Assembly (NCBI GenBank): GCA_026075535.2
Contig: AP026548.1
Span: 3,596,001-3,660,000 of the forward strand
Length of the DNA stretch: 64,000 nt
Direction of reading: 5' to 3'
DNA from: Tricholoma matsutake
Taxonomy: Eukaryota > Basidiomycota > Agaricomycetes > Agaricales > Tricholomataceae
Shown here: positions 34,337-60,620 of the stretch, piece after piece
Layout of the letters: each line of letters begins with the position of its first letter
How positions within the stretch are numbered: the stretch's first letter is position 1
Translations under genes and position numbers: made by a program
The notes under the pieces: generated by a model
Seen by the model: the letters and a program-made list of their open reading frames with translations, nothing else
Databases searched by the model: none
What the model was told of the DNA's origin: nothing

Positions 34337-34393
34337 ACTCCCCCAGAATCAGCACATCTAGGTAGAAATCAAAAATGTCCATACCAAAAATAA

Positions 34394-37571: not shown

Positions 37572-37847
37572 AGGAAAAAGCATCTGGGCCGTAGCGTACC
37601 ACCATCAATTGATAGCCATAGGTAGGCTCCAGTGCATATTAGTGTATGACTGTTCCTGTTATGATACCCGCTCAATAGCAACCCAATAGATCCGACAGAC
37701 GAGCGGATAGTGCTTGGTTGCATTCATATCAAACATGATAGGAGTTGAAATCATCCATAGTGCTCTGTCTATGGTTGGTAGTTTATGTAGTTTATACTGC
37801 AACACTATAGACTATGGTGCTTCGGTACTACTAGTAGTAGGGCGATG

Positions 37848-40800
37848 TCAAATAAGTCTGGATGGCAGTGTTGCAATGAACATATCGATGTTGATGTAAG
37901 TATTCACCCAGAACACCTCAGCCTTCTCCAATACATTACTTGTTGTCCAGTTACGATTGAGCTCCTGGCCTGATTTCCCCATCAGATGAGCACTACGCAC
38001 TATCCAATCCACCACAACAATCTCGGCATTTGGATGGCGATGACGTGTCGAATGTCATATGCTGTACATCCCTGTCACTGGATCGAGCTGACCGAGAGTC
38101 ATGAACCATTCGATATATGCCAGCGGGTGAGGGAGTCGACCGAATTGTGGGGGGAGGTTAAAAATAGCATGCACTTGAGCAATGCGCAGACCTGCGATAA
38201 CAATGTTGGTAGTTGGAACATGAATTGACAACCTGAAGACATACCTTGTGGGAAAGGTGTATCCTGTCGGTAGTAAACTGGATCTTCGATCACAAATGCA
38301 GTATCGAAATATGCTGGTATTGAGAGTTGTCATCCAGTTGCATTATGAGCAGGGGTAGTGCGTATGCGCTCCTTGACTTGAATAGAACCCATGAAGTCGT
38401 TCGGAGGGAGGATGAAATGCACTTGCTTGTATACATTGAAGTGGTCATATTTAGATGGTTGAGGAGCATGTGGACTATATTTCTTGAGGAAGTCCGAAAA
38501 TACATCCAGGAAATCCGGAATAAGGTGGTGAGTTTCGAGGTAGTTGACCGTGACATTGCGGAAGGCTGGGCGCTTTGCAACGTACCAATGTTTAGGGGCA
38601 GACATTGATGTTGACGGTTCCAACTCATCATCGCTATCCTCCCCATCATACACATCTAGATCATCTACATCGACTGCTGGATCAGGGTGAAGCCATGAAA
38701 GGTATGCTGTGCAAAGAAACATCGCCTCATGTCGCTGAAGCCAGAGTGCCATTTGTTCTAGAAAGTCTCACTTGTTACTTGCAGGATAAGCTTCTTTTGC
38801 AAAATTGGTGTGGAGGTGTTCTGGTGATTCGGTATTGTATCCATCAGTGGATCCATGAGTGAGAATTGCATCAATGTAGTGCTGGATCATGTGGAGCTTT
38901 GGTATGTTGAAATGTTCATGAATACCAAGTTCGACTAAGATTTCTTTGTTGGCATGAAAAGTGTCGAGGCATTTTTGAAGTGCGGCCAGTGTTTGGGTTG
39001 TATGATGGTGGAATTGGGAATAGTAGATGAAATCGATCACCGAATGCACCACAGTGAGGACCTGGACACTCACAGCACCAGCCATAACACCAACAAATAT
39101 TCTTTGCATCTGTCTGTGCTTGGCCCCCGTCCACTGCGATATAAACGACACTCCTTTCTTGAAATGTTGCAACCCTGCATGACTGTTCATTGCCTTGAAA
39201 TGTGCATCCAGTTCTCCAGCACCGATGACACTAGTACACCAGCTAACAAGATGGTCCTTGAAAACACCTTTATGGAGCTGATGGAGAATGTCGGGTGTGA
39301 AACATTGGAAGATGTTGGTATGAGGAAGTGTTTTCCAAAATGGTTCGTGCACCACTTGCAAACCCAAGTCGTCAAATTTCTCTGCCAAATCCTGGTGATT
39401 TTTCTTGCGCCTTCGATCCTGATTCAACAACCTAACTGTCTCTTCCATCTCCCTCCACAAGGATGTAACAAGTTCGCCCCTTTTGTCGGTGCCAACCTTG
39501 CAACACGGACACCGACTTTCTTTACAGCATGCCACAAGACATTGCTCAGGAAAGTCCACCACATATGCAGCAAGAATAGGAAAGATACAGTGGATGTACG
39601 AGTCTGCGCATGTCATCTCAACTCCATCCCTCCCAGCCTCAATCAGCGGTTTCAAGATCTCAGACATACAGTGATGGAACAAGCGGTAGCCTGAAACTGG
39701 TTGAGTAGCATCTGAGAAACATTCAAGTTTAGAAACAGGTAAGTAGCCAATAAGCACAGTCGCATTTGCAGATACCTAATACCAGTTTACAGAATGTTTT
39801 CACATATAGCTAGGATATTATGGACCTGGTGTCGCCTCTCTTTAGCGATGTTGCTGATGGTCAGATATACTGGCCATGCCTTCTTATCTCCTCCGAATGC
39901 CATCAATTGTGTCTTGTCTGAAGCGAGAATGATCGGTGCTACCACACCGCCTTCAGGAATTTTGCCCTGGGAATTATTAAGTTGATATATCGAGTCGATA
40001 CCATGCTTGCCACAATGAGCGCTTACCTGTGTCTTCCACCACCAGTCTGCTGTCCATCCCTCATCAATGACACGGTTCATCCCATTCTTGTCCGTAAAAT
40101 GCTGTACAGGTGCGTATGAGATATCGCCATTCAGTGCTGGGTTGCCAAGTAGTTCTTGAATATACTCTACAGGGTTGTGACGCCAAAGCTCAAGCTCCTC
40201 AGACAACATCACATTGCCATGCAGGACCCGTTGGTAACTGATCAACTTTCTTCAAGAAGGAGTATGTGTTGTGGAATGAGAGGCCACTGCGCTCTCTGGT
40301 CTATGATATCAGGTAAGCTGATGTCGATTGATTCTAGGCTTTTCTTGTATGAACTTACAATTGGAAGCTTTAAAAATTTGTCAATGGAGTTCTGGCCAAC
40401 ACTTTTCATCAACCATTGGGCCAAATCCCACTCCTCTTGGCTTGCAAATGGAGCCCACTTGCTTTCACCTAATGCAGCCTGTGCTTCCTGCAACTTTTCA
40501 AATGGGGTTTTTCCAATTCCAAGAGTCTGTGCGACAAGACCTGGATAGGATCTGTGGTACTGGGGTGGTTTGCGAGGATCATCTTCATCCTCAACCTCCT
40601 CGATTTTGACTGTGTGTTGTTGAGGTAGCTGCACATCTGGTAAAGAAGGAGATCGATTGTCAGAGAATTCGAAGGGTTCTTCAGGGCTACCCATTTCAAC
40701 ATCACTGTTGGGTCCCTCGCTGTCGATGCCCAGGTCAATGGTGATGGACAGTTCGTCATGAGTCCTGACTGTGGAAAAATGAGTGAGATCTTGCTTATAT

Positions 40801-40901
40801 GCTTCATAGCATGGAGGTGAGTGTCTGATGTGTCAGTTGACTGCTGTCTGAGAAGGTTTTGGCTGATGACAATATCTGCAGGATATCGCACGATGAGACA
40901 T
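37848..40901 (-). pseudogene. Plavaka transposase, copy 1, with several TGA stops
   Basis: Plavaka transposases are fungal relatives of the CACTA/EnSpm group. The ATG at 40901 opens a Cys/His finger (CRYCHQPKPSQTAVN, then HIRHSPPC) that is interrupted by a TGA at 40833-40835. Next come PYQYH-type spacer sequence and KTPFEKLQEAQAALGESKWAP, then EELELWRHNPVEYIQELLGN, GWTADWWWKTQ and APIILASDKTQLMAFGGDKK with a catalytic Asp. It continues with [68 protein letters not shown] and [16 protein letters not shown]. Later TGA codons at 38330-38332 and 38055-38057 lie in otherwise open frame, before HSTRHRHPNAEIVVVDWIVR. The ORF ends near 37848. The main domain is intact, but the stops should prevent full translation. 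Confidence 0.88.
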
Positions 40902-41264
40902 GGCTATCAAGAGGTGAGAGTCCTCTGTTCCCCTCAGCTATCTCAGTGTCTCTGTCGCATCTGTACAGAGATTTACGCCTTATTGCATGGCCCCTAACTG
41001 TGCCATTGTGCCACTCTGCCTGTCTCCCATGTCTTTATTTAGCTCTACTACTAATGTTCCACATTGTCGCATGCACCACTCATTAATTTCTGCTCAATGT
41101 TCAACCATTCAACGTGCACAACACAATCACGAGCATGATCATGTTCTCCACATATGACATGTTCGTTGACTGTTGAATGCTGCTTGGCTCAACAACCTTA
41201 TAAATAATATTCTCGATCGTCCAACATCTACTGCAAATCGCCCCACCTTTCGCCTCCAATCAAC

Positions 41265-43171
41265 ATGCCTAAACCTCCTACCAGTGCTCAAGCCCACTCT
41301 CATCACGATAATGACCAAGGTTGTCCTGATGCTCTTACATGGGGTTTTGCCAACTTATCAATCTTTAGCTTTGAAGGAAAATGTTATGCCCACTGGTGTT
41401 AGGTCTCCATCTGGCTGTCAGCATAAGCCTAGTCAAAAAGTCCACGAGCGCCATAAGTCCACGAGCGCCATAAGTCTTTCAATCTTGTGTTTGAGTAGCA
41501 TGCTCTCATAGTGCATCCCTGTAGGCATGGAAGAGGCTGCAGCTGCACAACGTGCTGAGGCAGCCAAGATCAAGAAAGCACAACATGCAGCATGCAAGGT
41601 CGAAAACTCTGATGAGGATGCTGGCACTGAGGGAGACAATGAAGACGCTAACCCTGTATGTCCAAGTCACTAACTATCAATTCCAGGTCTCTTACTGACC
41701 ACATCTGTAGTTTATCACTTGTACTGTGACCTCAAAAGCTACTCTTATCAAGAATAATATGTCAGCACAGCGCAAGGCCTGCATTAGCAATGTCAATGCA
41801 TTCAGCGACAATGATGATGGTGAGGTAAGCACATCAACAGTATCATGGCTAAATCGTAGGTACTCAGTGAGATCTTGGCCAGGAACGAGGATGTTCACCT
41901 CAATGCTCTAATGGTGGTCAATGATATCAATCTTCACCTGGGGATCTGCATAGCAACAGCTATGATCGCGGGTTGGACTTCCCTGATAGTCCAACTCCTG
42001 TCAGCAACCTTCGTGATGTGTCTCAACCACCATCTCCTGACAATGAGGGGGCATCTGTATCGAAGTGACATGCAACGTCTACTGACTTGTTGCGTATCAC
42101 CAAAGTACTGAAGACCTCGGGTGGACGTCCCAAAGCCAGTGACTACCATGAAACACTCAAGAGAGCCATTTTACTTGCAGCAGCTGAGTTTCAATGTAAC
42201 ATTAGCACAGTACAGGCATTTCCTGATAGCGAGATGGAACATGAGATATTAGGTATTGCATGGGAAGAGGCTTGTCAGCGTATTCGGCTTGACTTGCCGA
42301 TGCTCACCCCTTCCATCACGAAACTAGTAAGCCCCAATGCCATCTAAATTGACAACTACTAAACATGACACATATTCCTAGATCACTAGTCGTGGATCCC
42401 ATCTTCGAGGAGAGCTCAAGATGAAGACCCGGTTTTTAGTCGAGACCTTCTATGGTTTTGAAAGTGGCCACAATCACAAGATCATTGTCAAGAATCGCCA
42501 GATAGCTGAGGAACTGAAAGATGGCTGCACATTCGTTTACAAGGTATCATTCTTTGTGTTGAGTAGAACAAGTATCTGATTGTATGGTAGATAACCCATG
42601 CCAAATTAGCGGAGCGCAAGGGACTCTATCAGTCAAAGCTTATCCAGAAAGTCATCAATGCCATGTGGTTCAGAAACAAACAAGACGAAGGCATAACATA
42701 CAGTTCTTACTTCAATCCCTTCACCATTCCGGCCCTCACTCTAGTTTTGATGGCTGTGAGTCCTTCTGATGCTTATCATTTGTTTGTTTACTAACAAATG
42801 TTCTTGCTAGATCGAATGTTGCATTGATGAGTGGATTACTGGCATCAAAACTGATATCCCCTTCACTATGGCATTCTACCAAGATGTATATGAAGACCAC
42901 ATTCATTGCCTCTGACGCTTTGAGAAACACACTAGGAAGCATGACATTCTCACCAACATTCTTCTCAAGATTTATAATCAGGGAAGGTAAGTGACATATG
43001 TCAATGTCTGTGATCTATGCTCAAGGTTTATACAGATTCCACTCTGGTGCCCAGCCCCTCTCTATGGCTGACCACCCCACTATCTCTGATGATGCGTTTG
43101 CAGCTGCATTGAAACAATACATCGAGGAATCGGAGACTGAGACCAATGGTGAGCATGGGGACTCGGACTAA
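41265..43171 (+). pseudogene. DUF6532 protein, copy 1, next to Plavaka transposase
   Basis: DUF6532 is a basidiomycete domain of unknown function. A start at 41265 (MPKPPTSAQAHSHHDN) is possible. Ala/Lys-rich and acidic exons follow (MEEAAAAQRAEAAKIKKAQH, then VENSDEDAGTEGDNEDANP). The domain begins TKVLKTSGGRPKASDYHET and AILLAAAEFQCNISTVQAFP. It continues ITSRGSHLRGELKMKTRFLV, ETFYGF, AERKGLYQSKLIQKVINAMW, FNPFTIPALTLVLMAIECCI and DEWITGIKTDIPFTMAFYQD, and ends with FHSGAQPLSMADH and an acidic tail at TAA 43171. Introns of about 50-60 nt separate the exons. A TGA at 42913-42915 falls between EDHIHCL and RFEKHTRKH, so this copy is probably inactive. It is transcribed away from the Plavaka gene. 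Confidence 0.78.
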
Positions 43172-43547
43172 GAACTACCATCCAATTTCTACTTTTATTT
43201 TTAAATATTTGATTCCCCTAGTTCTTATGTATCATTGTGCTTGATTGAACTTGAATGACAATTTATTGGTGTAACCCAACTATTATGATGAGCTATCTCA
43301 AGCACTATGTGATGCAACACACATCTGAAGCATCTATGTATTACTACCTAGCTCGTTATAGGCTACCAAGGCTACAAGACTATGCAGCTATGTGACATGT
43401 CATAGTACCCAGTCACTACTACCAACCAATAGTAGTACTACAGAACATTTGGTGAGTACTACCACACACTATAATTTTTGGGGCAAGCAACCGAGCTATG
43501 AGTGCTATATATGCTATATACTGCAATGTTGTGCACTGTTTTTTTTC

Positions 43548-43582
43548 CTGATGTACTGATGTGGCTGATTCAAACTCCAACA
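43548..43582 (+). repeat. LTR family A, copy 2, right part
   Basis: It reads CTGATGTACTGATGTGGCTG and ends TCCAACA. It aligns with the end of LTR copy 1 (34302-34336), with differences confined to the first 15 bases. Confidence 0.6.
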
Positions 43583-43730
43583 AACCCTGCAGCAGACCCC
43601 TGCTGCAAATCAGCTGTGATTCACAGCCAGGAATCCTGTGTGAATCAGACCTCTTCAAGGCTCATGAGAATCACCTAAGTATGCAAGACAGCTCAGAAGT
43701 CTATTTCCTGCAACACTACTGCCTGGGTCC

Positions 43731-43898
43731 CTACAAGAGTGTCTCTTACATCAGCAAGTCTTATCTACATCTGCACCCAGTATCACATGTTAGTCCAGTA
43801 GTATATAGTCTATACTTTGAATACTTGTACCTTATCTTAGTTTCATCTTTTTACATGTCTCATTCTCCTTGAGTGTTGGAAGCTCCAGCTTCCTTCCA
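43731..43898 (+). repeat. Left LTR, family C
   Basis: It aligns with 47046-47229 apart from a gap of about 16-20 nt near its end and scattered, mostly transition, changes. Its first bases read TACAAGAG where the right copy has TGTAAGAG. Confidence 0.75.
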
Positions 43899-44355
43899 CT
43901 TTTTTTTTGTAACAAACTTACTATCTGCACTCTAGTACTCTCTCTCATGATGTGCATCTTTTCCTTGCCCCACTAACCCTGAATTGTCCAAAATGGTTGA
44001 ATTTTTCACACCAACAGTTCTCTTAACAATGACACTCACTATCTTCCATGCTCCCTCATTGATCATATCTCATTCCTGCCCCCCTGCTCCTTCTTGGCCC
44101 CCCCCCCAGCCAGGGACTTGTTCTGTGCTGTGTCATGTCGCTTGCTTGTTGCCCCCAGAAAGTTAGCTGCCCAGCAAACAAACTACATGACAATGACCAA
44201 ACACATTCTCTGGTTGATGAAGCAACTTGGCTTGCCCCACTTACCTGAATGAAGGCCCATGAAACCCTGCCACACACCCCTGCCTGTCCCCTATTGCTCC
44301 CCAGCCCATCCCTTCCTGCACCCCACCCCATGCACTTGCCACATCACATACCAAC

Positions 44356-44752
44356 TGTAAGGGGACTAGGGGGTGCCCCATGTGTTTTTCCTATTTTTCA
44401 CATTTGTCTTATATATTTCCTCACTTCATTTCCTCCTATTCTTCATTTTCTATGATTTTTCCTTATTTTATTACTAATTTCCCTTTCTATCACATTTGTG
44501 CAAGTTGACAGTTTTATATTTAGAGGTGGAGTACCCTTTCCAACCTTGGTATGATGTCATTCAGTAGCCTTGATCTGCCTATCTCTGCCTTTTCTATTTT
44601 TCAATCTTCACATATACTGGGCATTGGCAAAGTCCTTAGAGTTTTCTCTTTGAATTTCCCTTTGCTAGGTGTGCCTCCACTCCCTGTAATATGTACCATA
44701 ATTTTACCTTTGCTAGTCCACTAATTAAGTGGCCTCTAAGGTTGCCCTTATA
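44356..44752 (+). mobile_element. Solo LTR of the gypsy family, opposite orientation to the 54-kb element
   Basis: The 397-nt sequence starts TGTAAGGGGACTAGGGGGTG and ends GGTTGCCCTTATA. It matches the reverse complement of the 426-nt gypsy LTRs at 54250 and 58263 along most of its length, with more divergence than those two show from each other. CCAAC precedes (44351-44355) and follows (44753-44757) it, a perfect 5-bp duplication. A solo LTR arises by recombination between the two LTRs of a full insertion. Confidence 0.88.
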
Positions 44753-45027: not shown

Positions 45028-46619
45028 TGTTGTGAAAAGGGTAACAGAGCCTGTGGGTTACAAGTGCTTGAAGAGCACGACTACAGTACAGTGCAGATTA
45101 TATACTGGTAACTATGGGGTGGAATAACGGAAGGATGAATGAGTAATAGAAAGGGTATAGGGCTGGAGCAGCCTGAGGTAACTGGCTGAGCTCGATATCT
45201 CTACACACCCCCTCGAGCAAAAGATGGTACAGTTGGTCAAGTAAAATGTAAGAATAAAGGAAGAATAAAAAGGAAGAATAAATAAACAAGTGAGAGAATG
45301 AACAATAAAAGTTCCATCACAGAGCCACACCAGTGTCATGTTCTGCCATGAATATGTAGTCTTCTTCATCTGAGTCTCCCAAGAAAGTTGCAGATGCAGC
45401 TACTGCTCTTCCCAACCTTTTACGACCAGAATCTTTCTTCTCCTTGATGTCCAGATCCTTCTGAGGACAAACAGTGCTGTAGTGACCTTTATTCAAGCAA
45501 TAGAAGCAATAGACAGAGTCACTACCATGTGTGGATTGCTCAGCATGCATCACCACATTATTGGTTTCTTCCTTCTTGACCTCGGCAACAGCAGGTTTGT
45601 CTTGGCGACCTTCTTCATTCAGTAGGCAAGTGATGATGAAGTCGAGGGTAAGAATTTTGGAGTCAACATTGTCGAACATGATGACAACAGAAGAGTAAGA
45701 GTCAGGTAAGCCAGCCATGATAACAACAATGACATCTTTGTCAGTGACAGGGACATCAATCAATTTGAGCTTGTTTGACAGAGTGCAAACCTCCCCAATC
45801 CAACTTTCAATACCCTGTCCTTCCTTCATAATAGCGGTGATAAACTTCCGATGGATGTGAAGATGGCTGCTAAAACTGCGCACCTGATGAACAGCAGCAA
45901 GACCATCCCAAATGACCTTTGGATCAGAGCTGGACATGTGAGCAAGCTGCAAATCATCTGCATGCAAGACAAGCTCAGATTTGCACTCAGCCTGCCTCTT
46001 CTGAAATGCTTTCAACTTCTTTGGGTCAGCCTCTCCATCCTCCAGCCTCTCATCACCCAAAACAAGATCCCAGAAGCCAAGCTTGATCAAAATAGCTTCC
46101 ATATGGACAGCCCATTCTGAGTAGTTTGAGTGATTGAGTTGGGGAATGCAAACAGATTCAGACATTGTGGTGCAGTGAGGATGAATAAGGATTATAAGGA
46201 TATGAGTGTAGGGAACCAAATGAATGAGTATGTGAATTGGCACGGATCACAATGGCTGCAGCAGAAGTACGTCTCTGCAGAGCTCCAAGAGTTACGAGGG
46301 TGCCGATGATGCAGAAGTACAGTCTCTGCCATGCACAGGTTCCAAGCTTGCCAACAATCTGAAGTATGGTTACAGTGCTGCAAGGTGAATTTCAGCTTTC
46401 ACTGGGCAGGGGTGGATACACAGGTTTCACAAGATGCTGAGCACTTGTGTTGTGAAAATGGTAACAGAGCCCATGGGTTACAAGTGCTCAAAGAGCATGA
46501 CTACAGTACAGCACAGATTATATTCTGGTAACTATGGGGCAGAATAACGGAATGATGAATGAGTAATAGAAAGGGGCTGGAGTGCCCTGAGGTAACCAGC
46601 TGAGCTCGATATCTCTACA
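45028..46619 (-). mobile_element. Gag-only Ty1/copia-type LTR element
   Basis: Direct repeats at 45028-45205 (178 nt) and 46448-46619 (172 nt) are about 90% identical and run TGTTGTG to CTCTACA on the plus strand. Flanks are GCCCA on the left and GCTCA on the right, a 5-bp duplication with one transition. The 1.24-kb interior holds one gene, gag, on the minus strand. A purine-rich tract (GAGGGGGTG read on the minus strand) lies directly upstream of the left LTR, as expected for the 3' LTR primer site. No protease, integrase or reverse transcriptase is present. Confidence 0.85.
45317..46165 (-). CDS. Ty1/copia Gag polyprotein
   Basis: Gag forms the retrotransposon capsid and packages its RNA. 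The start chosen is the ATG at 46165 (MSESVCIPQLNHSNYSEWAV), typical of copia Gag proteins. An in-frame upstream ATG at 46243 gives a hydrophobic leader unlike the family. The UBN2-like capsid region includes EAILIKLGFWDLVLGDE, KVIWDGLAAVHQ and IMAGLPDSYSSVVIMFDN. A CCHC knuckle, CFYCLNKGHYSTVCPQ, lies about 55 residues from the end. The protein ends in an acidic stretch and stops at 45317, well before the LTR, so it is not read into a pol frame. The ORF is fully open, unlike almost every other transposon gene here, which suggests recent activity or selection on Gag alone. Confidence 0.9.
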   Translation of the reverse strand: MSESVCIPQLNHSNYSEWAVHMEAILIKLGFWDLVLGDERLEDGEADPKKLKAFQKRQAECKSELVLHADDLQLAHMSSSDPKVIWDGLAAVHQVRSFSSHLHIHRKFITAIMKEGQGIESWIGEVCTLSNKLKLIDVPVTDKDVIVVIMAGLPDSYSSVVIMFDNVDSKILTLDFIITCLLNEEGRQDKPAVAEVKKEETNNVVMHAEQSTHGSDSVYCFYCLNKGHYSTVCPQKDLDIKEKKDSGRKRLGRAVAASATFLGDSDEEDYIFMAEHDTGVAL

Positions 46620-48731: not shown

Positions 48732-48747
48732 GACTTTCCTTCCTCTT

Positions 48748-49590
48748 CCCACTACTCTCATGCCCAGGTGAGTGCTGAGGTGTGTTCCTTCCTCTTCTCT
48801 CTGACTTTTGTACCCAGTTGTTGAGATCAAGTTGTATTCACATTTACCTTCCTTCCATCACCTAGCTGGTAGCTTTTGCCCACCCACCCATTTTTTCCCA
48901 ATGGGGTTTTCCATCATGTGGAGAGGTTTTAATGCACCCTTGCATTCTCACATAATTAGGCCACCACTGATTTCAGGGTGGATGTAGCTACCTTGTTTAC
49001 AGTCCCTGCTGCTACTGATTTCAGGGCACACACTGCTCTCATTAAATTTATTGGGAATGCCATTGATTTCATGGCACTCCCTCCTTTCTGGCTACATCCA
49101 TGTGATGACCCAAAAACCCAAGGCATAGTAATTAGAGTCTGTTTATGCAGAAAGGGCTTAAGCCATGGCAACAGAAAGTGTTCATTGCACCAGGTGCATG
49201 CAGCAACACAGCACTGCATGCATCATTCATTAAGTATCTTTGCACTGTGTGCATGCTACAGCACAGCACACCATGCATCCATCATTGTTCATGCTGAACT
49301 GCAACAACTTCCCCTATTCCTCAGATGTGAGCTTTCTGAGACAACCCCTTTTTCAGGGTTCTTTCTGCTTCTCACATTCTATTCCAGGTAAGGACATCAG
49401 TTTATTTAGTTCTCTCTGCCTCTCACATTCTCTCCCAGCCTTACAGTACCCCATATTCTATTGATTTTAAACCAAACTACATCTCTCATGTCAGAAAATG
49501 CCCATACATTTTAATTTGGACAATTGTTGCCTCATGTACTCCCAGAGGGAGATGAACCAGGAACAAACAGAGGAGCATCAGGAATCTGAT
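48748..49590 (+). other. Decayed sequence left of Plavaka element 2
   Basis: No intact gene is seen. The segment at 49005-49070 has a short internal repeat of CTGATTTCAGGG type. Near 49530-49590 a plus-strand frame (MYSQREMNQEQTEEHQESD) runs exactly to the border of element 2. It continues in frame on the other side at 60621, so this is the left half of an interrupted coding sequence. Confidence 0.5.
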
Positions 49591-49620
49591 CAGGAAATCC
49601 CTACATGGTAAAATTTGCAT
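49591..49620 (+). repeat. Left terminal inverted repeat of Plavaka element 2
   Basis: It starts CAGGAAATCCCTACATGG and matches the reverse complement of 60591-60620 with one mismatch. Similarity continues more weakly for about 16 nt inward. Confidence 0.85.
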
Positions 49621-50015
49621 ACATGTTACCAAAAACACTCGAAAGCACTCCATTGTGGTCTTTTGAACCAAATATCCATATTTGATGCATTAAACCATCT
49701 GAACCAAAATATCCATAACTGAATGTGCACCACCTGATGAGCTGATCTATTTTGCAATTTTGGTACCATTTGACAACTATTTTGTTGTATTCAGCTGTAA
49801 TATACTTCTTTGATGACATGGAGTACATGATTTCTCATTGGTACCACTGAAAGTCATGCCTGATTCACAACACTTGATGACCACTATTAGATATTTTATA
49901 TTAAACAGCATATAACAATACAAAGGGTGAAGTAGGCTATCAGAAAGAATCCCATTAAACGAGCATAGAAACAGTATATCAGCAAAAAAAAAGGTCCATT
50001 CATATCCATAGGTGC

Positions 50016-52504
50016 TTAGACATCCATCGCATCAATGTCGAGCAATGCCATCACACTGTTTGTGACCGTGGCTGCCTGCTGTGCATTCTTCGACCTAGGA
50101 TCAGGTTAATATTATACTTTCAATCATGAAGGAATATGGTCTCACAAGACTGCATTGTATAGGTCAGCCATCAGGCGATGGAAGGCAGCAGGGCTCTTAG
50201 CATGAATTTCTCTGAGAAAGTCTTCACGGCCTTTATACACATCCTCGTATAGGTCGGCATTGAATTCAGTCTTCTTGTAATGACCCTCAGACCAGTCATC
50301 TAGAGAAGTGTGGATCTGCAAGTGCAGTTCATATCATCAGAGTTTTTGCAAGAGTGGGATCTCTTACCGCAGTTGCTGCTGCACAGACCATAGCAACTGG
50401 CAGCTCCAGTTCACCTGCTTGCACACCCTGTGATACGCTCGACACAAATTGGTAAGCATGCTTCTCCAATAATGATGCGCCATGCAAGGTTGCAAATGCA
50501 AATTCCTTCAAGGTTGAGATCATGCATGGATGCTGGAAGGGTTTTGTCTTGAGAAGAAGACCAGACTGGTTGAAATAGTTATGTAGTGAGTATTGGAAGG
50601 AGCAACTGATGGCAAGTACAAACATCATTTCTTGGATATATGTTCAGTGGTCATTGTCAAATGTCTGACACGACCCTTGCAGGCATCACCTGGTATCAAT
50701 TGATAGAAACCTTTCACCTCTGATGTGGCTACCTTCTTTAAGCTACAGCAAAGGTTTGAAAGACAAACAGCCAACTATAAGGGATCTTAGAGAGTGGTGG
50801 CTGGATAAGGTAACTATAACGCACCACATGAGAAACAACCTCTGCAAACTTGCAGTCTTGCTTGAAACAGTTATGGAGTGTGCAAAGATTAAGATCCTTT
50901 GCCAATTGCTTGAGAAGATTGCAGAGATGATCAACAATGGTAACAGCACTAGGATATGTGGTCTTGAAGAGGGCATCACCAGTAACCTCACAAATGGCAG
51001 CTTTAATTACACTCTGCAGTGACGAAGACTGGTTTTTGATGCTGATAATGCAAGCCCCAGATTGAGGTGGGACATAATGAGCACTGAGCTTCCAACCCTT
51101 GTTGACATTGGGATAGCGAGACATAGGTGCATCATCATCAGAAGACTCTTCATGTTTGCAGGACTATGTAAAATGTAAGTGTTCGTAACCTGGTAGTACT
51201 TGAAATGATACCTTAACAATTTTAGAAGGAGCTGGTGAGAGACTGCCAGTGGATGGTTCACCATGCAAAAACCTCGGTACCTTTGAATGTATCTTGTTGT
51301 TAGTCATGCAAAACATGCTCTAGCTGTCTTGGAGTCATTACCTCTGTACGATGGGCAAGTTCATGCTTGGAAGGCTACAAAGTGGGTTCATGAAAAGAGG
51401 ATGGGAGTATCGAGAGATGAACAGACCTTGTTGTTACGACGATGTGGAATCTTGTGGAGATCCTCATCATCATCTTCCATCAGAGAATCCTCATCTTGGT
51501 CTTGGTCTTCATCTTTGATGGGTTTGCCTTCAATTTCCAAAGCTGTGGTAAGCTCAATGTTGGGAATAAGGCCATCATCTGATGTTTCCTCATCATCCCG
51601 AGGTTTTGATGACCAATGAGCATGCTACAGAGATAACAATGAGATTTGGGCATCACAAGAATAAATTATTACCTCAGAAGAAAGAGCTGACACAACAGCT
51701 GTGCCATCCAACTCTCAAAGCCCATCTGCACCATCATTGAGGCCCCCCTCAATGTCCTTGTCAAAGGTGTTGTGCTCATCAGAACTTTCTTTGGAGCTTT
51801 CATTGTCATCCTCCTGTTGATAGTCCTTGCGGCAAATGACCTTGATGGAGTGGTGCTGCTGAATGACTCTCAACAAACCTGTTCAGAACTGTTGATGGGA
51901 GTCATCTTCTTGATACATGTCATCATCCTTGTCTTCATCATCTTCGATAGCAACAGGAGCCTTGTGTGAAACTGGCTTTGGGCTTTAGCACAGATTATCT
52001 ACATGAAAAGAAATACCCAAACCTTTTTGCTGGCTATTGACTGTGTTGCTGGCTGTCCCATGTTTGTCACCGGTAGCAGAAGCAATTGTGTGTTGCAACA
52101 CTACAAACAGAATTAGAAAGCAGGATGGAACGATCACTCGGATGACAAACTTGTTGGTTGTTTTGCATATTCAGTTTTCTTCTCTGAGCTGGTCGGATGG
52201 ATGGCTCAGATGAGAAACATTGAAATCAGATGAGATCTTACATTTTGCTCTCTTCAGAGGCTGCAAGTCATGTGGCTGAGAAGCAGAGCCAGAACACTTC
52301 CGCCCCTGTGGTGCTGCACCACGCCATTCTACTCCTGATGAGAGTGAGTCCATTGAGGCTAGCGGCACTATGTACTTGCATTTGCCATAGCCTGCAATTT
52401 GGCTGACTGGGAGGCTGGAAAAGTAATGAGAAAGGTGATGAGACACAGAAAACTCTCATACGTCATTCCTGGGCTTCATCAGATGGGTTCCATTGTTTTG
52501 CCAT
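50016..52504 (-). pseudogene. DUF6532 protein, copy 2, next to Plavaka transposase
   Basis: The same family as the gene at 41.3-43.2 kb. The ATG at 52504 (MAKQWNPSDEAQ) is spliced to a region with KCKYIVPLASMDSLSSGVEW. Acidic low-complexity exons follow (for example DEDKDDDMYQEDDSHQQF near 51.9 kb), with a TGA at 51714-51716 in ADGL-ELDGTAVVS, where arginine is plausible. The conserved domain starts near 51124 (MSRYPNVNKGWKLSAHYVPP) and has IKAAICEVTGDALFKTTYPS. Next are QHPCMISTLKEFAFATLHGA, GELELPVAMVCAAATAV, YKKTEFNADLYEDVYKGRED and SPAAFHRLMADLYNAV. It ends DIDAMDV at 50016. Sequence divergence from copy 1 is large, so this is not a recent duplication. It is transcribed away from the adjacent Plavaka gene, as in element 1. 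Confidence 0.78.
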
Positions 52505-54249
52505 GTCAAGATCCTGTGTTTTGCAAAGTAACTGGCGGAGAAAGTGATAAAAAAAAAGGAAAAGAAAAAGAGATTAATGGAAACTACAAGGAGTGGAAGG
52601 GGTTGAAAAGCGACATGTAACAATCGAAAAATTTTATTTTTTTTAAGTTGTACCTTGTGGAAATATGTTGATCCACCCCAATACCCCAAAACATATTCCC
52701 TGATATCCCATCAGCAACACGAATGCATGTTCTTTGTCATGGATGTGGGGCAGCATTCAAGCGCAGTGGGCTCAGCAACCATCTTTGTCAAAGCCAAAAT
52801 CCACGATGTCACACCAATCCGAATGATACCCAGACAGCCAGGTTGCCTGATATTGATCAACACTCAGATGATGACTTTGCGATGCAAGATACTGCTGATG
52901 ACCTACCCACCATGTCATTTTCAGGACCAGCCATGACAGATGCCCACAAAAACAAAATGCAAGAGCAGTTTCATGTCACTATAGATCCCATGGGTGATTT
53001 CTTTGGAGATTATGCAAATTATGCAGCACTGGACTTTTGGATGGATGGTGGTGAGGACGGAGAGGGACAGGCATATGTTGGTGCTACAGGGGAGGAAGAC
53101 CCTGAATTTCTTGCCGAAACACAGGAGGAGGAGGAGATCAGACTATATGATGCTGTTCTGGCTGAGGATGAACAGTGGCTGGAGCCTGAATGACCTTTGC
53201 AACAGGTTGATATGCTTGATGGGGAGCAAGACACATCAGGTTTGCAGCCTCCATTGCATTTACATGGCAGATTCAAAAAACCACTTTCTAATCACCCCGA
53301 CATTGTCACCTTTCATACTGGAAGTGCAGGGGCAGTATATCGTGGAGAAGCATGGAATGGAAATCTGGATTATGGCTGCTCAGCTGGTGATGCAAATCAA
53401 TCAACCGCATACACACCATTTTCATCCAAACTTGATTGGGAGATTGCACATTGGGCAAAAATGTGGGGACCAGGATCTAATGCACTGACAGAACTGCTGG
53501 GCATCAAAGGGGTGAGGTTTTTGTCATACATGAATAAACTCCAGTACTTACTGATGGCACTGATAAGGTTGTTGAGCACCTCGGGCTAAGCTTCAAGAAT
53601 GTGGGTGAGCTGAATAAGCTCATCAATCAAGAGCTACCAGGTCATCCATCCTTTCAACGACATGAGGTGATGGTGGGAACTGAGGTCTGCAATGTGTACT
53701 TCCGTAATGTGATTGCCTGCATCAGAGCCTTGTTTGCTGATCCCAACCTTGCACAGTACCTAGTGATGGCACCAGAGAAGCACTTCACATATGGGAGTGA
53801 TGGGAGGAGGGTCCAAATGTATCATGATATGCATACCAGACGGTGGTGGTGGTTAACACAAGTGAGGGACTTTGGCATCATCAGCTATTGTGCTCAAGCT
53901 CACATGACTCAGCTTGCAGGAGCAGCTCGAAAAAGACAAGCCTGGTGCTACCATTATTCCCCTCATCATCTCCACCGACAAGACCCTGCTCACCCTATTT
54001 CGCAATAAAAATACATATCCTGTATATTTAACAATTGGAAACCTCCCCAAGGAAATTCATTGCAAACCATCTTGTTGGGCCTATGTTCTCTTGGGCTACC
54101 TCCCCACCACTCGCCTTGAGAACGAATCAAATATTTCCTCTCGTCATCATCAAATTGCCAACCTTTATCACACATGCATGTCCAAAATTCTTGGGCCTCT
54201 CAAGCAAGTGGGAGAATCTGGTGTCTTCATGACAACGGGAGATGGGTTT

Positions 54250-54675
54250 TATAAGGGCAACCTAAGCCTCTAGCAAAGGGAAATCCAAAGTTAAAATTAT
54301 ACTACATAATACAGGCATTGGGGACACACCTAGCAAAGGGAAATCCGAAGAGAAAACTCTAAGGATCCCCTTGCTGATGCCCAGTATATGTGAAGATGAC
54401 AAAAATCAAATATAACCTAAAAATAGAAAAAGGTGGAGATAGGCGGATCAAGGCCGCCGAATGACATCATACCAAGGGGTATGTGTCGGAAGGGGTACTC
54501 CACCTCTAAATATAAAAGTGTCAACATGTACAAACATGATAGCAAGGGAAAATTAGTAATAAAATCCGGAAAAATCATAGAAAATGAAGAATAGAAGGAA
54601 ATGAGGCGGGGAAAAATATAGGACAAACATAAAAAATAGGAAAAACACACAGGGCACCCCCCTAGTCCCCTTACA
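54250..54675 (-). repeat. 3' LTR of the gypsy element
   Basis: Pairs with 58263-58688 at equal length. Differences, for example GAAGATGAC against GAAGACGAC and AGGCGGATC against AGGCAGATC, are transitions, several of them at CpG. Confidence 0.92.
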
Positions 54676-54710
54676 TCACCCCCTCTCTAAGATGCATCGC
54701 CCCGATGCAT

Positions 54711-55825
54711 TCAAAATTGCATACGACCAAAGTCCATGACTTGAATGCAATGCGGTGCAGCAGTGTGCCGTCGGTGGAATTCCTTGATTAACCGAGGGGC
54801 ATTTACGTCAGACTCTTTGACCCATGAGTTCTCCTCATACCCATAACCCTTCCAATGTACCAAATACTGGAGTTTTCCTCGACGCAAACAGCTGTCCAAG
54901 ATTGACTCGACTTCATATTGGGGTTCTCCCTCAATCACTGTAGGTGGTGGTGGTGGGTGTGAATGGCGTCCCAGGAACGGATCTGGGGGAGCTGGAAGCA
55001 ATTTGACGACATGGAAGACGGGATGGAGTCTGGACATGGAGGCTGGGAGGCGTAGATGATAGGCATGCATTCCAATGCACTTGACAATGGGAAAAGGTCC
55101 CAAGAAGCGATGAGCGAGTTTCTTGGATGGACGTGTAGTGGAGACATCACTGGAGTCAAGATAAACTCAATCACCAACCTTGTACTGAGGGGTTGGGGAG
55201 TGGCATTGGTTGTAAAATCGCGCCATGTCATCCTTCACCTTTGCTAAGGCTGCCCTTGCCTCCTCCAAGCTATCCCTCATGCGTTCTGTGAACTCATTCA
55301 CTGTCTCGATGTGTGAGGGAGTTTGGCGAGGTTCAAATCCCATGCGTGGATGTCATCCAGTGTCTAAGAGGAAAGGGGTCTGTTGAGTGGAAGCATGGAC
55401 ATGGTTGTTGTATCTGAACTCGGCCAAAGGAAGGAGATCGTCCCAATCGTCCTGGCATTCATTGACAAAGAGGTGGATGTACTGCTCCAGTTCCTGGTTG
55501 ACTCGCTCCGTCTGGCCATCAGTTTGTGGGTGATAAGCGGTTGAAGCGAGGAGTTTGATCCCCAGGAGTCAGTACAGCTCACGAGTGAACTCTGCCATGA
55601 ACTGAGGGCCACGATCCGAGAGGAAGGCACCAGGAAGTCCATGTAATTTCCACACATGGTGGAGGTAGAGTTGAGCGGCACCTAGGGCACTGACAGTGGT
55701 GTGAGTGGGAATGAAGTGAGTGTGTTTTCCCACTGAGTCAACTGTGCACATCACCGCATCAAACCCATTTGACTCTGGCAACTCCACCACAAAGTTGATG
55801 CTGACAACATCCATCGAAGTGAGCC
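54711..55825 (-). pseudogene. Gypsy integrase (C-terminal two thirds) and chromodomain
   Basis: Integrase inserts the cDNA, and the chromodomain directs it to modified histones. The catalytic triad is visible: Asp in MCTVDSVGKHTHFIPTHTT, Asp in FLSDRGPQFMAEF, and Glu in STAYHPQTDGQTERVNQELE. The region then reads DWDDLLPLAEFRYNNHVHAS, FLGPFPIVKCIG and SRLHPVFHVVKLLPAPPD, and ends with a chromodomain (LQYLVHWKGYGYEENSWVKE). TGA codons at 55569-55571, 55353-55355 and 55167-55169 stand where the family has arginine (YRLLGIK, TGRHPRMGF, GDRVYL). The zinc-binding N-terminal part of integrase is absent because of the internal deletion. The stop is at 54711, just inside the LTR. Confidence 0.88.
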
Positions 55826-56278
55826 ATCCTTCTTCTTGACAAAGAAAAAAGGAGAGGCCATGGGTGACTTCGATGGTCAAATATGTCCAGAGGCCAGGTG
55901 CTCGTCGATGAACTGGTCAAGCTGCCGTTGTTCTTCCGGAGAGAGAGGATAGACCTTGCAGGATGAAGGGGTTGCACTGGGGGTGAGTTCGGTCGCATGA
56001 TCCCATGGCTTGCGCGCAGGAAGAGAGTCAAATGACTCCTTGGAGAACACGTCTTCAAACTCATGGAGATGAGGGAGTAAGGAGTTAGTAGAGGATTTAG
56101 CAGTGTTGTTTTTGTGGAAGGCCTCGGTGAGGCATTGGGATATGTTCGATGTGGCACACACCTCATGCGATGAGCGAATCACAGTGTAGAAGATCCGATC
56201 ACCCTCCTCCACTTCCTCTGGGTCCTCATCATCATCATCCAAGTCCGGCATTAGATCAGGAACCCCTTCCAATTCCAC
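55826..56278 (-). pseudogene. Reverse transcriptase N-terminal stub of the gypsy element
   Basis: From 56278 the frame reads MELEGVPDLMPDLDDDDED, FEDVFSKESFDSLPARKPWD and ATELTPSATPSSCKVYPLSP, then EEQRQLDQFIDEHLASGHI. After a TGA at 55877-55879 it continues with PSKSPMASPFFFVKKKDGSL. This is the start of a gypsy reverse transcriptase. The next codons jump straight into the integrase core (SINFVVELPESNG), so the palm with its YxDD motif, RNase H and the integrase N-terminus are deleted. The junction lies near 55825. Confidence 0.87.
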
Positions 56279-56551
56279 TTCAGGTATAGGCAGGGGTCCA
56301 GCACGACACTTCTGAGTACATCGTATCGCCGCCTTCTGTCCACAACGTTCTTGCCTGGCTTCTGTGAAACACGTCCAACAGTGGGATGGACATCAGCTCA
56401 TGGTAACCTCCCCGGTACGCCAGTCGACCTTTGGGTTATGGTCTCGAAGCCATGGATATCCCAAAATCACCTTTTGCTTTCCTAATTGAGTGACAGCAAA
56501 AAGGGCACACTCACTATGATCTTTGTAATGGAGAACCAGGTCTGCAACCTC

Positions 56552-56989
56552 TCAGATGGCACCAGCTTCATTTGGGGATCCATCCACATTATATACAGGT
56601 ATCGGACGTGAGAGTGAGCGAGTATTTAGGCGATGTTGTTGTACCAGATGGGAATCGATGAAGAGACCAGTCGCACCAGAGTCCAGGAGTGCAGAGACAT
56701 CGAGTATCTGTCCAGTGTCGGTTGTCTGCAGTTCAATGGCTAGGTTCAAGGAATGTGCAGAGGGAGTGGATGCCACAATATACTTGCGTGGTAGTTTATG
56801 CTCCCATGATTTAATTTTGGGACATGGAGTAGAAGGAGAGATGGGGAGAGCAGGTACGTCTTTAGCTAACTTCAAAGGGTTAGAGAGGGGAGCAGTCACA
56901 GAAATGGATTCATTCTCTGGGGATTCAACTGACAAGACTTCAAAGCGGTTATGGACAGGCAGTGAGGGTGTACGATTCACTCGCTGCAA
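56552..56989 (-). pseudogene. Retroviral-type aspartic protease region of the gypsy element
   Basis: The active-site motif DSGATG occurs in DVSALLDSGATGLFIDS near 56.67 kb, preceded by SLNLAIELQTTDTGQ. Downstream codons on the same strand, in broken frames, read [20 protein letters not shown] and CTQKCRAGPLPIPE. These link the protease to the reverse transcriptase start. A frame change near 56995 separates it from Gag. Confidence 0.85.
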
Positions 56990-57054
56990 ATAGGAAAATC
57001 CTGCTCCTCTACAACTTCCAACTTAATCTCCTCTGCAACTTGATCCTTTACTTC

Positions 57055-58096
57055 CTCAACATCTACAAGTGCCAACAAATCTTGCAGGAGTTTGTCTCAT
57101 CCCTCAGGGGTGAGCATGCGGATATCCTGACGATGGGGACATGCTCCAGCCCTGTGTCCAAGTTCCCCACAATGGTAGCAGAGATCCAACTTACGTGCAT
57201 GGCTGCAGGCTGCATCAACATCCATTGGTACTGGGACATTGATGGCTGGTGTGGGAGTTTGACAAACAGGAATGGGGTTAGGGTGGGGGAGGCTTCGATT
57301 GAAGGTGTAGGGCGTATGAGTGGTAGTTGGAGCACGGAATGCAGCATTAAACGCCACATTTGTGAGTCAATTCTCGTCACAGAGTGAAGCAGCTTCATAC
57401 CAAGCAAGGATATCATCATCCACTGGGCGCCCTTCCAACATCTGTGCAATCTGGTCCTGAATTTCTCGGTTGAGCCCCCGTCGGAACTTCACCACCACTG
57501 GTAACCCACTCCCATATCCTGCCATGTCCACCAAATCCTTGAACTCATCGATATAGTCGTCCATGGATTGATGTCCCTGGTGGTAAGCAGATGACTCAAG
57601 TCGTGTCACTGCTTGGTGGCATTCATTGAGGGGGCAGAAGTGGCATACAAACTCAGCTCAAAAGTCACCCCAAGTGGAGAAAGGTAGAGAACCGAGTTCT
57701 TTAGTTTGACGTAGGATATGGTCCACATAGAGATAGGCGCGTTCAGATTTCATGTATGTGAAGGCCCAATAAATTTTTGCAGCCTCATCGACAAATTGAT
57801 GTGACTGGAGACTGATGTATAACTCACAGGAATTAAGGAATGCACATCCCTGCGCACGTGCACCATTAAATTCGGCGGGGGGGGGACGGTTTGATCTGGG
57901 CGCGTTCCTTAGTGGACATGTTTGGCAAAATGTCATTGTTGGGTGCGCTTGGAGTCGTAAAGGGGGGATTATTGGTTGTAGGGTTAGCCTGGAGGGTCCT
58001 AACAAAGTTTTCAATTGTAGATTTAAGCGAGTCAATTTGCGCGCACATTCTGGAAACGTCGCTTTCAAGCACATTGAAGTGTTCTGATGCATCCAT
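57055..58096 (-). pseudogene. Gypsy Gag with zinc knuckle, frameshifted
   Basis: The likely start is the ATG at 58096 (MDASEHFNVLESDVSRMCAQ). The frame breaks at a run of nine or so C residues (read on the minus strand) near 57876, then continues PAEFNGARAQGCAFLNSCEL, DEAAKIYWAFTYMKSERAYL and LPFSTWGDF to a TGA at 57658-57660. After it comes AEFVCHFCPLNE, then HQSMDDYIDEFKDLVDMAGY and GLPVVVKFRRGLNREIQDQI. The CCHC knuckle CYHCGELGHRAGACP is followed by MLTPEG and a TGA at 57097-57099. The homopolymer shift could be an assembly error, but the TGA codons are not explained that way. Confidence 0.85.
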
Positions 58097-58262
58097 GTCG
58101 CTAGGGAGCGTGTTTGGCAAAAATGGCAGCGTAATAAAGGCGAGATTATCTGGAACGGTGTGTAGGGACTCTGTGGAGCTTTGGGAAGCGTCATCCAGTC
58201 CGTACCTGCCTATCTTGGGCAGCATGTTCACAATTTTCGGGCCTTAGGGGAGAGTTTTCTAC

Positions 58263-58688
58263 TATAAGGGCAACCTAAGCCTCTAGCAAAGGGAAATCCA
58301 AAGTTAAAATTATACTACATAATACAGGCATTGGGGACACACCTAGCAAAGGGAAATCCGAAGAGAAAACTCTAAGGATCCCCTTGCTGATGCCCAGTAT
58401 ATGTGAAGACGACAAAAATCAAATATAACCTAAAAATAGAAAAAGGTGGAGATAGGCAGATCAAGGCCGCCGAATGACATCATACCAAGGGGTATGTGTC
58501 GGAAGGGGTACTCCGCCTCTAAATATAAAAGTGTCAACATGTACAAACATGATAGCAAGGGAAAATTAGTAATAAAATCCGGAAAAATCATAGAAAATGA
58601 AGAATAGAAGGAAATGAGGTGGGGAAAAATATAGGATGAACATAAAAAATAGGAAAAACACACAGGGCACCCCCCTAGTCCCCTTACA
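58263..58688 (-). repeat. 5' LTR of the gypsy element
   Basis: The LTR upstream of gag. It has the same 426-nt length as the 3' LTR and is bordered on its outer side by the duplicated GGTTT at 58689-58693. Confidence 0.92.
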
Positions 58689-60590
58689 GGTTTACGCATT
58701 GGAACCATCCCCTCCTCGTGTGTTTTTCAAGTGATTATCCAGAACAGGTGTTGACTACCGCAACCTTTACTGGAGAATGTCCTGTTTGTCCTGCACCCTG
58801 TGATCAGCTTGGAGAATACGATCACAATCTCCCTGTGGTGCTTCAAGAGCTGGATCACGTCCTAGAAGCATTGGATTCATTTGATGATGATCCTGCCAGT
58901 TTTCTCCAGGCATGCAAGGCTGCTGCAGTCAAACCTATCATTGATCCATTCTGGAAGGATCTACCTTATGTACACATCTACCGTTCCATTACACCTGACA
59001 TCCTGCACCAGCTCTACCAAGGGGTCATCAAACACATTGTTGGCTGGGTCACTGAGGCATGCGGGGCCACGGAAATCAATGCACAATGCCACCGTATGCC
59101 ACCAAATCACAACATCTGCAACTTCATGAAGGGCATCAGCACCCTTTCCCATGTGACCAGCCAGGAGCATGATCAGATGTGTTGCATCCTTCTTGGCCTT
59201 GTTATTGACATTCCACTACCAGGGGGGCTTTCTAATGTGTGGCTGGTTCAGTGGTACACACATTATTGGATTTCCTGTATCTTGCACAGTATCCTGTGCA
59301 TACAGATGAGACATTGGAGGTACTTGATGATGCTCTGGAACATTTTCACAACACAAAGGCCATATTTGTGGACCTTGGCATCCGGGAGCCACTCAATATC
59401 CCGAAATTGCACTTCGCTCAGCACTACGTAACATTCATCCAACTCTACGGCACATCCGACAATTTTGACACCGCCTACACCGAATGCCTTCACATTGATT
59501 TTGCAAAAGATGCATATGCCACTACCAATCACAAGGATGAGTTTACACAGATGACAACATGGCTTGAGCACAAGGAGAAGATGTTTCGTCATGAACAGTA
59601 CCTCAAATGGCATCAAGATGGTTCTCCAACCTCGAGACCGCGAATTGAATGGCAACCTCCCAGTCTTGAGCTTGACCATTGTCTCCATATGACAAAACAT
59701 CCCACTGTGCGAGCCATACCAGTTGACAGACTTGTTGAAGTCTACGGTGCCACTTACTTTCATCCAGCACTCGCCTGCTTTATTGCCCTCGCTAATGAGC
59801 TGACTCTTACATGTGCTCAGCTGGAAGCAAAACTTCGGAGTATTTGTATGCCATTCTGCTCAGTTCTCATTTGGCATCGAATCAAGTATCTTTGCGAAGA
59901 TCTTGTCTCAAAATCCACTGTGACAGCCGACTCAATCCATGTCCAACCATTGACCACCGATAACCATGGGCACATGGTGCCTGGTCATTTTGATATCGTG
60001 TTGGTGAATGAGGGCACAGGTGGAGATACTGGAACTGAAAGTAGGCCCTTCAAGTTGTACCACTCTTACGATCAATAATCATACCTGTCACAGGCTACCA
60101 TATTGGTTGTGTATGCATAGTCTTCTCAATACCAGAGAAGGCTCATGATGTTATGTTTGGCAGCGGTGTAGTCGTTCCTCAACATCTGGTGTATATCGAG
60201 TGGTATACACCCTTCCCTGAAACACCCAACCGCAATCACCTTCTGTACAAGATTTCACCCCTTCGAGACCAAAATGGTGGACACATCTATAGTGTCATTC
60301 CGCTTGCAAATATCTGATGCAGTATTCATCTACTGCCGCAATTTGGCCCATTTGCACCTCAGGAGTGGATGAGCAGCAAGGTTCTCAATTTGTGTAGTTC
60401 ATTTTACATGAACAGCTTTACTGATAGACATTTGTACCAAATACTATGTTAATACAGATTTTACAATAAATCACAGAAAAACACTAAAATGTTACAACAA
60501 GTACCTGTGATGTTATGAGGAAACCAACTATGAGCAAAGTAACGCACTTCCCTACTTTGTTTGTTTTCATCCATATTATTTGGTTCATTG

Positions 60591-60620
60591 ATGCAAATTT
60601 TACCATGAAGGGATTTCCTG
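60591..60620 (-). repeat. Right terminal inverted repeat of Plavaka element 2
   Basis: The reverse complement begins CAGGAAATCCCTTCATGG and matches 49591-49620 with one mismatch. The Plavaka stop codon lies 139 nt inside it. Confidence 0.85.

Follow-up and report, generated by a model that had tools for sequence, protein, structure and literature searches.

In Tricholoma matsutake, the gene for DUF6532 (PF20149) is almost certainly a gene of Plavaka transposons, in which it lies head to head with the transposase gene (PF18759). This gene pair, itself near certain, was recognized in a window of 64,000 nucleotides on chromosome 11 of this species (C11:3596001-3660000; C11 comprises 10,203,996 bases), where two PlavakaB-type transposons, termed here element 1 and element 2, each carry it, and it recurs elsewhere in the genome searched (13 sequences, 161,040,721 bases). 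At least in T. matsutake, a domain of unknown function can in this way be assigned to a gene that regularly accompanies the transposase in one transposon lineage, and pipelines that count DUF6532 as mushroom genes may be counting transposons. Plavaka can also be tested as a two-component system, in which the two proteins are known, the ends are defined and repeats are available as candidate binding sites.

Association of DUF6532 with Plavaka across the genome

Profile searches of the whole genome gave 105 matches to PF20149 (150 of 161 candidates scored), which merge into 70 loci, and 167 matches to PF18759 (123 of 786 candidates scored), of which those listed merge into 117 loci. All genome-wide locus counts given here are lower bounds that refer to the matches listed; the matches were made exon by exon, many copies are decayed, and one genome is covered. 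Loci are labelled L011-L040, and L017 and L018 belong to the same lineage as element 1.

A Plavaka transposase is found within 12 kb of at least 36 of the 70 DUF6532 loci and within 5 kb of at least 28, and the orientation is divergent in 35 of the 36. The sole tandem case arises because the split transposase of element 2 is not among the matches listed, so that the DUF6532 gene of element 2 was measured against the transposase of element 1. Viewed from the transposase side, at least 35 of 117 Plavaka loci have a DUF6532 match within 12 kb, which is upstream in all 35. The start codons of pairs, as read, are separated by 143-395 bp. The control families KDZ and hAT (150 listed matches each) lie within 12 kb of 3 and 1 of the 70 loci, respectively, and within 5 kb of none and 1. 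When 70 points were placed uniformly, on average 1.25 of them, and in 5000 trials never more than 7, fell within 12 kb, against the 36 observed. The association exceeds chance, and the comparison of DUF6532 neighbourhoods proposed in the initial annotation has thus been borne out in T. matsutake, with Plavaka far more often nearby than KDZ, hAT or random points.

Random nesting in regions dense in transposable elements could in principle bring unrelated genes together, and heavy nesting is real here, an LTR (long terminal repeat) retrotransposon having inserted into element 2. Such an artefact is nevertheless scarcely credible as the source of the pair, given the low KDZ and hAT counts and the position of both genes within common ends and target duplications (see below). 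Separately, two 9.8-kb stretches of C1 (L014 and L016, near 10.14 and 11.57 Mb) that hold the same Plavaka-DUF6532 element are 99% identical, flanks included, and lie in opposite orientation; this looks like a segmental duplication.

The two elements of the window and their ends

The initial annotation described two Plavaka elements, each with a divergent DUF6532 gene, and this description stands: both carry a transposase and a DUF6532 match over the curated PF20149 cut-off of 24 bits (table 1). In element 1, PF18759 is matched at 39236-39781 on the minus strand (229 bits), and three DUF6532 exons are matched on the plus strand at 42358-42543, 42603-42758 and 42805-42921 (49.2, 41.2 and 34.7 bits). 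The start codons at 40901 (-) and 41265 (+) were seen at the predicted distance of 364 nt, and the spacing is identical in L017 and L018, which are 94-95% identical to element 1 over about 6 kb. The copy looks decayed, because its transposase frame meets a stop 22 codons past the start.

The right end TTTTTCCTGATG is common, exactly or nearly, to L013, L017, L018 and L020, with flanks that differ in each, and this fixes the end of element 1 at 43553. The left end of L018 is CATCAGGAAAAA, with CA on each side of that element; in element 1 the left edge lies at 37567-37572, its outermost bases are altered, and TA flanks both sides (37565-37566 and 43554-43555). Element 1 had been placed between the parts of a split LTR. 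Its left flank (37405-37562) indeed shares 97% identity with a repeat at 29792-29949, but the element also has ends of its own. The matches to its left and right flanks (29792-29949 and 34314-34337) are about 4.4 kb apart, so that this repeat, too, looks interrupted.

Element 2 has a DUF6532 exon at 50214-50315 on the minus strand (30.2 bits), and stretches near 50157-50342, 50365-50553 and 50951-51151 resemble L011, L021 or L028 in the same order. Its transposase is similar to that of L026 at 58904-59047, and further pieces resemble the PF18759-matched transposases of L021 and L026 and that of element 1. The catalytic domain is split by the LTR retrotransposon at 54250-58688, and this copy looks decayed because its transposase is interrupted. 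An LTR-like piece around 44356-44712 is 86-88% similar to the repeat of this nested retrotransposon, in opposite orientation. The predicted spacing of 219 nt is retained in part: the transposase runs on the plus strand from 52723, but the DUF6532 start at 52504 is unconfirmed and the spacing provisional, because the ATG frame there stops after 13 codons. Both genes lie, as had been stated, within matching inverted ends, now refined to 49588-60623; 18 of the 20 terminal bases pair as an inverted repeat, one outer base differs from CATCA..TGATG, and a CT duplication (49586-49587 and 60624-60625) flanks the element.

Both elements are of the PlavakaB type, with CATCAGGAAA..TTTCCTGATG ends. Among 21 sequences searched for CATCAGGAA / TTCCTGATG ends, 6, from five lineages, hold both genes between matched ends that are bordered on each side by an identical dinucleotide (L011 TA, L017 TA, L018 CA, L024 CA, L030 TT and element 2 CT), which answers in the affirmative the earlier question of common inverted repeats. 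The first 20 bases of these six end pairs differ at 2-8 positions; L017 and L018, with 8 mismatches each, were counted because their 2 bp match and relatives whose flanks differ share their right end. L013 and L014 were left uncounted because they mismatch at 6 of 20 bases, their flanking 2 bp do not match and the left site is internal or lacks support; L025 and L028, with 9 mismatches despite matching 2 bp, were likewise excluded. L012, L014, L016, L019, L021, L022 and L028 gave right-end candidates only. When single bases were shuffled, 0 of 105 sequences had an end pair of 6 or fewer mismatches. The ends in the six copies agree with the 5'-CATCA..TGATG-3' printed for PlavakaB (PMC12730594). 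Both elements of the window fit Plavaka/PlavakaB in their PF18759 domain, CATCA..TGATG ends and 2-bp duplication.

Table 1. Features of the two PlavakaB-type elements, in window coordinates.
Feature	Position	Strand	Basis
Element 1, PlavakaB-type transposon	37567..43553		comparison with L013, L017 and L018
Element 1 left subterminal repeat region (ATAG)	37567..37917		holds 11 of the 24 ATAG of the two 350-bp ends
Element 1 transposase gene (Plavaka, decayed; 3' limit approximate)	38290..40901	-	PF18759 match, open reading frames (ORFs), zinc-finger first exon in L017 and L018
Element 1 divergent intergenic region	40902..41264		start-codon spacing kept in L017 and L018
Element 1 DUF6532 gene (several introns; 3' end by eye)	41265..43171	+	PF20149 exon matches; own profile
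Element 1 right subterminal repeat region (ATAG)	43204..43553		holds 13 of the 24 ATAG of the two 350-bp ends
Element 2, PlavakaB-type transposon	49588..60623		inverted terminal match and 2-bp duplication; ends re-read
Element 2 DUF6532 gene (limits approximate; start unconfirmed)	50010..52504	-	PF20149 match and similarity to relatives
Element 2 divergent intergenic region (provisional)	52505..52722		transposase ORF start 52723; DUF6532 start 52504 unconfirmed
Element 2 transposase, part before retrotransposon, zinc-finger N-terminus	52723..54249	+	ORF 52723-53193; similarity 53926-54246; N-terminal peptide
LTR retrotransposon nested in element 2 transposase	54250..58688		99% identical direct repeats of 300 bp, flanked by GGTTT at either edge
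Element 2 transposase, part after retrotransposon (3' limit approximate)	58689..60317	+	ORFs 58718-59431 and 59239-60078; similarity

Co-divergence, selection and loci without a partner

The divergence of DUF6532 and that of the transposase are correlated, as the initial annotation had expected of matching trees. Across 19 loci, the Mantel correlation between the two sets of protein distances is 0.924 (0 of 20000 permutations); L015, which has no DUF6532 piece in its stretch and a transposase cut by the edge, was left out. Three sets of 7-10 representatives gave r values of 0.875 (4 of 40320), 0.830 (3 of 5040) and 0.867 (0 of 20000). In most pairs, divergence is greater in DUF6532 than in the transposase domain (between L012 and L017, for instance, 0.67 and 0.48, respectively), and between some lineages DUF6532 is nearly saturated, with distances of 0.8 and more. 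For L022 versus L026 the transposase distance exceeds that of DUF6532; this reversal, like the inflated L026 distances in general, arises because the L026 transposase was read across a frameshift.

The ratio of non-synonymous to synonymous substitution rates (dN/dS) is low for both genes, at 0.10-0.14 for DUF6532 and 0.12-0.15 for the transposase in L013 versus L017, L018 and L020, and 0.21 and 0.22, respectively, in L021 versus L028. Other measurable DUF6532 pairs range from 0.17 to 0.55, and deeper pairs are saturated. Taken together, co-divergence and dN/dS argue that DUF6532 is maintained by purifying selection alongside the transposase, to an extent that appears to vary between lineages.

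Loci that lack one of the partners stand against a general pairing. No listed Plavaka transposase lies within 12 kb of 34 of the 70 DUF6532 loci. Six of the 34 were inspected, four (L031-L034) over as much as 7 kb of upstream sequence and two (L039 and L040) over a shorter distance, and no catalytic domain turned up in the sequence fetched. Conversely, 82 of 117 listed Plavaka loci are without a listed DUF6532; four were opened, and two of them, L037 and L038, have neither DUF6532 nor a dioxygenase gene in about 6 kb upstream. The transposases of L037 and L038 are only weakly similar to DUF6532-paired ones (23-36% over short stretches), and these loci may represent another Plavaka lineage. In addition, copies within one lineage are not independent, and constraint on DUF6532 is weaker in the L012 group (dN/dS 0.40-0.55 versus 0.18-0.35 for the transposase).

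Some of the unpaired DUF6532 loci are broken or extended pairs, because L032-L034 retain remnants of a transposase and L039 and L040 have their DUF6532 behind a dioxygenase gene. L032 and L033 keep transposase residues 1-49 in the divergent position; both are cut at about the same codon (49), and no shared deletion is claimed because the flanks are unlike. The DNA of L034 aligns with the paired copy L030 into the transposase start, where a protein search gave no match. L031 keeps DUF6532 only. Fragments of other transposons lie upstream in L031, L033 and L034, as judged by eye and by DNA match. The suggestion that many 'host' DUF6532 genes are transposon genes therefore holds for about half of the T. 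matsutake loci listed, and for some of the remainder that was opened.

The unpaired loci, together with L037 and L038 as Plavaka copies lacking DUF6532, are what might be expected if DUF6532 were a captured host gene or a passenger without a part in transposition, and the telomere-to-telomere assembly of T. matsutake is rich in transposable elements (71.6% repeats; PMC10211490). A passenger would not be expected on the same side and in divergent orientation in 35 of 36 cases, nor to be kept under purifying selection in lineages near saturation. It is very improbable overall, and for the paired lineages it is largely refuted.

Subterminal repeats and the possible role of DUF6532

Short repeats are concentrated at the ends of the elements. 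With both strands counted, the two outermost 350-bp stretches of each of element 1, L018, L024 and L030 hold 22-24 ATAG between them, versus about 3 inside; 0 of 2000 window pairs reach the count in these four, and element 1 has 24 versus 3.3 expected in two inner windows. L017 has 18 in its terminal 350-bp stretches. The counts for L012, L013, L014, L019 and L021 cover right ends only; GTAG is found 13-17 times in the right-end 350 bp of L012, L014 and L019, versus about 1, while in the ends of L011 and element 2, TGGTA is found 7-8 times versus 1.3-1.8 (0 and 4 of 2000 window pairs).

This arrangement resembles that of the CACTA transposons. En-Spm needs two proteins, TNPD and TNPA, of which TNPA binds subterminal repeats, and across CACTA families the ends are conserved, the subterminal repeats differ and the second protein diverges (PMC2613891). 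Maize TNPD and TNPA, like TNP1 of Antirrhinum, therefore share with the pair described here two proteins, conserved ends, family-specific subterminal repeats and a diverging second protein. The differences are that DUF6532 is a separate divergent gene, whereas the CACTA proteins arise by alternative splicing, and that the ends are CATCA with a 2-bp duplication rather than CACTA with 3 bp; no sequence relation between TNPA and DUF6532 turned up, no direct comparison having been made. The elements are CACTA-like in layout and are not CACTA elements.

A TNPA-like role, in which DUF6532 would bind the subterminal repeats and assist or de-silence the transposase, is ranked first because the Plavaka pair has the En-Spm layout, with conserved ends and with repeats and second protein that vary; we give it roughly an even chance. 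Of the two functions proposed in the initial annotation, DNA binding appears likelier than host defence because of the subterminal repeats. The two-gene core of PlavakaB joins DUF6532 to a DDE transposase whose N-terminus carries a zinc finger, the two being transcribed oppositely from a shared short intergenic region. In the proposed mechanism, the coiled-coil-like N-terminus of DUF6532 would multimerize, and its helical core, alone or with the zinc finger of the transposase, would bind the short repeats in about 300 bp per end. DUF6532 would thereby bring the element ends together and regulate or de-silence transcription there, and the transposase would cut at the conserved CATCAGGAAA ends; some elements also carry a TET/JBP-like dioxygenase gene. 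The parts of this scheme that we infer are DNA binding, the TNPA-like role, the division of labour between domains and a complete three-gene element.

The proteins offer some structure on which such a scheme could draw. Many DUF6532 proteins are 440-590 amino acids (aa) long, with a charged N-terminus, a coiled-coil-like stretch (by eye) and a helical core, and end in a conserved acidic tail, ELEGHTGETDSE. Protein searches found relatives in Lentinula, Mycena, Lyophyllum, Armillaria, Athelia and others, and five database relatives match PF20149 at 116-162 bits; a search of viral contigs for relatives with genomic context outside T. matsutake found none. An AlphaFold2 model of a 278-aa relative covering the core (pLDDT, predicted local distance difference test, 89.9; pTM, predicted template modelling score, 0.82) consists mostly of helices with one hairpin.

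Several results weigh against a DNA-binding DUF6532. No significant PDB or viral match to the model was found, which does not prove a new fold, and the fold therefore gives no evidence for DNA binding. In a Pfam scan of five DUF6532 proteins, only DUF6532 passed the cut-off, with no TNPA-like family. The repeat motifs are short (4-5 bp) and were picked after inspection, so the counts overstate the surprise; stronger evidence lies in the recurrence of ATAG in L024 and L030, whose ends do not match L018 at the DNA level. L012, L014 and L019 also have raised counts of TGGTA and ATAG at their right ends, and the right end of L021 has 7 ATAG versus 2.0 and no TGGTA; this overlap of motifs between lineages and the departure of L021 weaken the TNPA-like reading. 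Finally, the repeats could be bound by the zinc finger of the transposase and not by DUF6532. A zinc-finger-like N-terminus is visible by eye in the transposases of L012, L018, L022, L028 and element 2, and, with the strong co-divergence of the two proteins, it would suit a DUF6532 that acts as a protein partner of the transposase (in stability, nuclear import, assembly or target choice) without contacting DNA. A partner of this kind is fairly unlikely; it provides no particular reason why DUF6532 should diverge faster in most pairs.

Besides the TNPA-like role, an anti-silencing role has to be weighed, because some elements carry a TET/JBP-like gene. L035 and L036, high-scoring Plavaka loci with no listed DUF6532, have upstream a divergent gene for a TET/JBP-like dioxygenase of the 2-oxoglutarate- and iron-dependent (2OG-Fe(II)) type. 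The L036 exon matches PF12851 with an E value of 0.0031 and 17.2 bits, under the cut-off of 34.9, and a scan of five relatives gave four weak matches, the best of 31.2 bits, and one protein without a match. By eye, the motif reads HxD followed by a later H, whereas HxE is the hallmark of the PE-type TET/JBP of A. bisporus and G. confluens transposons (PMC12730594). A genome search listed 21 matches, read as 20 places. By eye, 7 of the 20 are within 12 kb of a listed Plavaka, all divergent, and at 4 (L039 included) DUF6532 is matched on the strand of the dioxygenase, 1.1-1.5 kb further downstream; this weakens the idea of a dioxygenase-carrying Plavaka that lacks DUF6532. L035 and L036 show, by eye, a gene start resembling that of the DUF6532-type gene, with no significant DUF6532 match at either locus. 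On C5 near 10.23-10.24 Mb, transposase, dioxygenase and DUF6532 follow in that order. A three-gene element is the natural reading, although none was seen with both ends. A single fused DUF6532-dioxygenase gene was considered and rejected for L039, where the dioxygenase frame stops ahead of a distinct gene that encodes DUF6532 together with serine-rich, leucine-rich and acidic parts. Loci with a TET/JBP-like gene between transposase and DUF6532 allow one to ask directly how a demethylase reaches its element.

As an anti-silencing factor, DUF6532 would protect the promoter and ends of the element from methylation or heterochromatin, and cutting would not require it. The dioxygenase genes, both the divergent ones of L035 and L036 and those just before a same-strand DUF6532, accord with this, as do the acidic stretches and coiled-coil-like part, which would suit a recruiter; escape from methylation has been argued for transposon TET/JBP genes (PMC12730594). 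Copies without a dioxygenase in the fetched span have moved too, however, as their 2-bp duplications attest, and the proposal overlaps the TNPA-like role, TNPA being said to regulate as well as to bind. That DUF6532 acts mainly against silencing is unlikely, if far from negligible. A bolder proposal, quite improbable as it stands, is that DUF6532 is a new sequence-reading DNA-binding domain of fungal transposons that reads the repeats of its own lineage and, in dioxygenase elements, delivers a TET/JBP-type enzyme to the ends, that is, self-targeted demethylation from one divergent promoter.

Precedents exist for both kinds of accessory protein: VANC of VANDAL21 is an anti-silencing factor, and TNPA has an activator function. 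VANDAL21, with VANA and VANC, likewise combines a transposase with an accessory protein acting on its own repeats; it differs in superfamily and protein, and an anti-silencing DUF6532 is hypothetical. Our search for a printed link between Plavaka and DUF6532 found none in the portions of the literature available; it did not extend to supplementary files or to the founding Plavaka paper, reportedly Iyer 2014, where such a link may exist. The available part of one report lists DUF6532 beside Plavaka and KDZ as extra domains and draws no link (PMC8955403). The Plavaka/PlavakaB elements of PMC12730594 share with ours the PF18759 transposase, CATCA..TGATG ends, 2-bp duplications and, in some, a TET/JBP-like gene; the available part names no second conserved gene, which here is DUF6532. 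Kyakuja, Zisupton and other TET/JBP-carrying fungal transposons (PMC12730594) also join a transposase to an element-encoded epigenetic gene, the difference being that the commoner partner here is DUF6532; the dioxygenase occurs at 20 places and has a listed Plavaka nearby at 7 of these.

Two further features of the window lie outside both elements. At 61856-62239, a perfect 42-bp inverted repeat surrounds a 300-bp loop in a foldback-like arrangement. On the minus strand at 45317-46243, a 308-aa open frame between direct-repeat pieces (45028-45205 and 46448-46619) looks, by eye, like a gag remnant.

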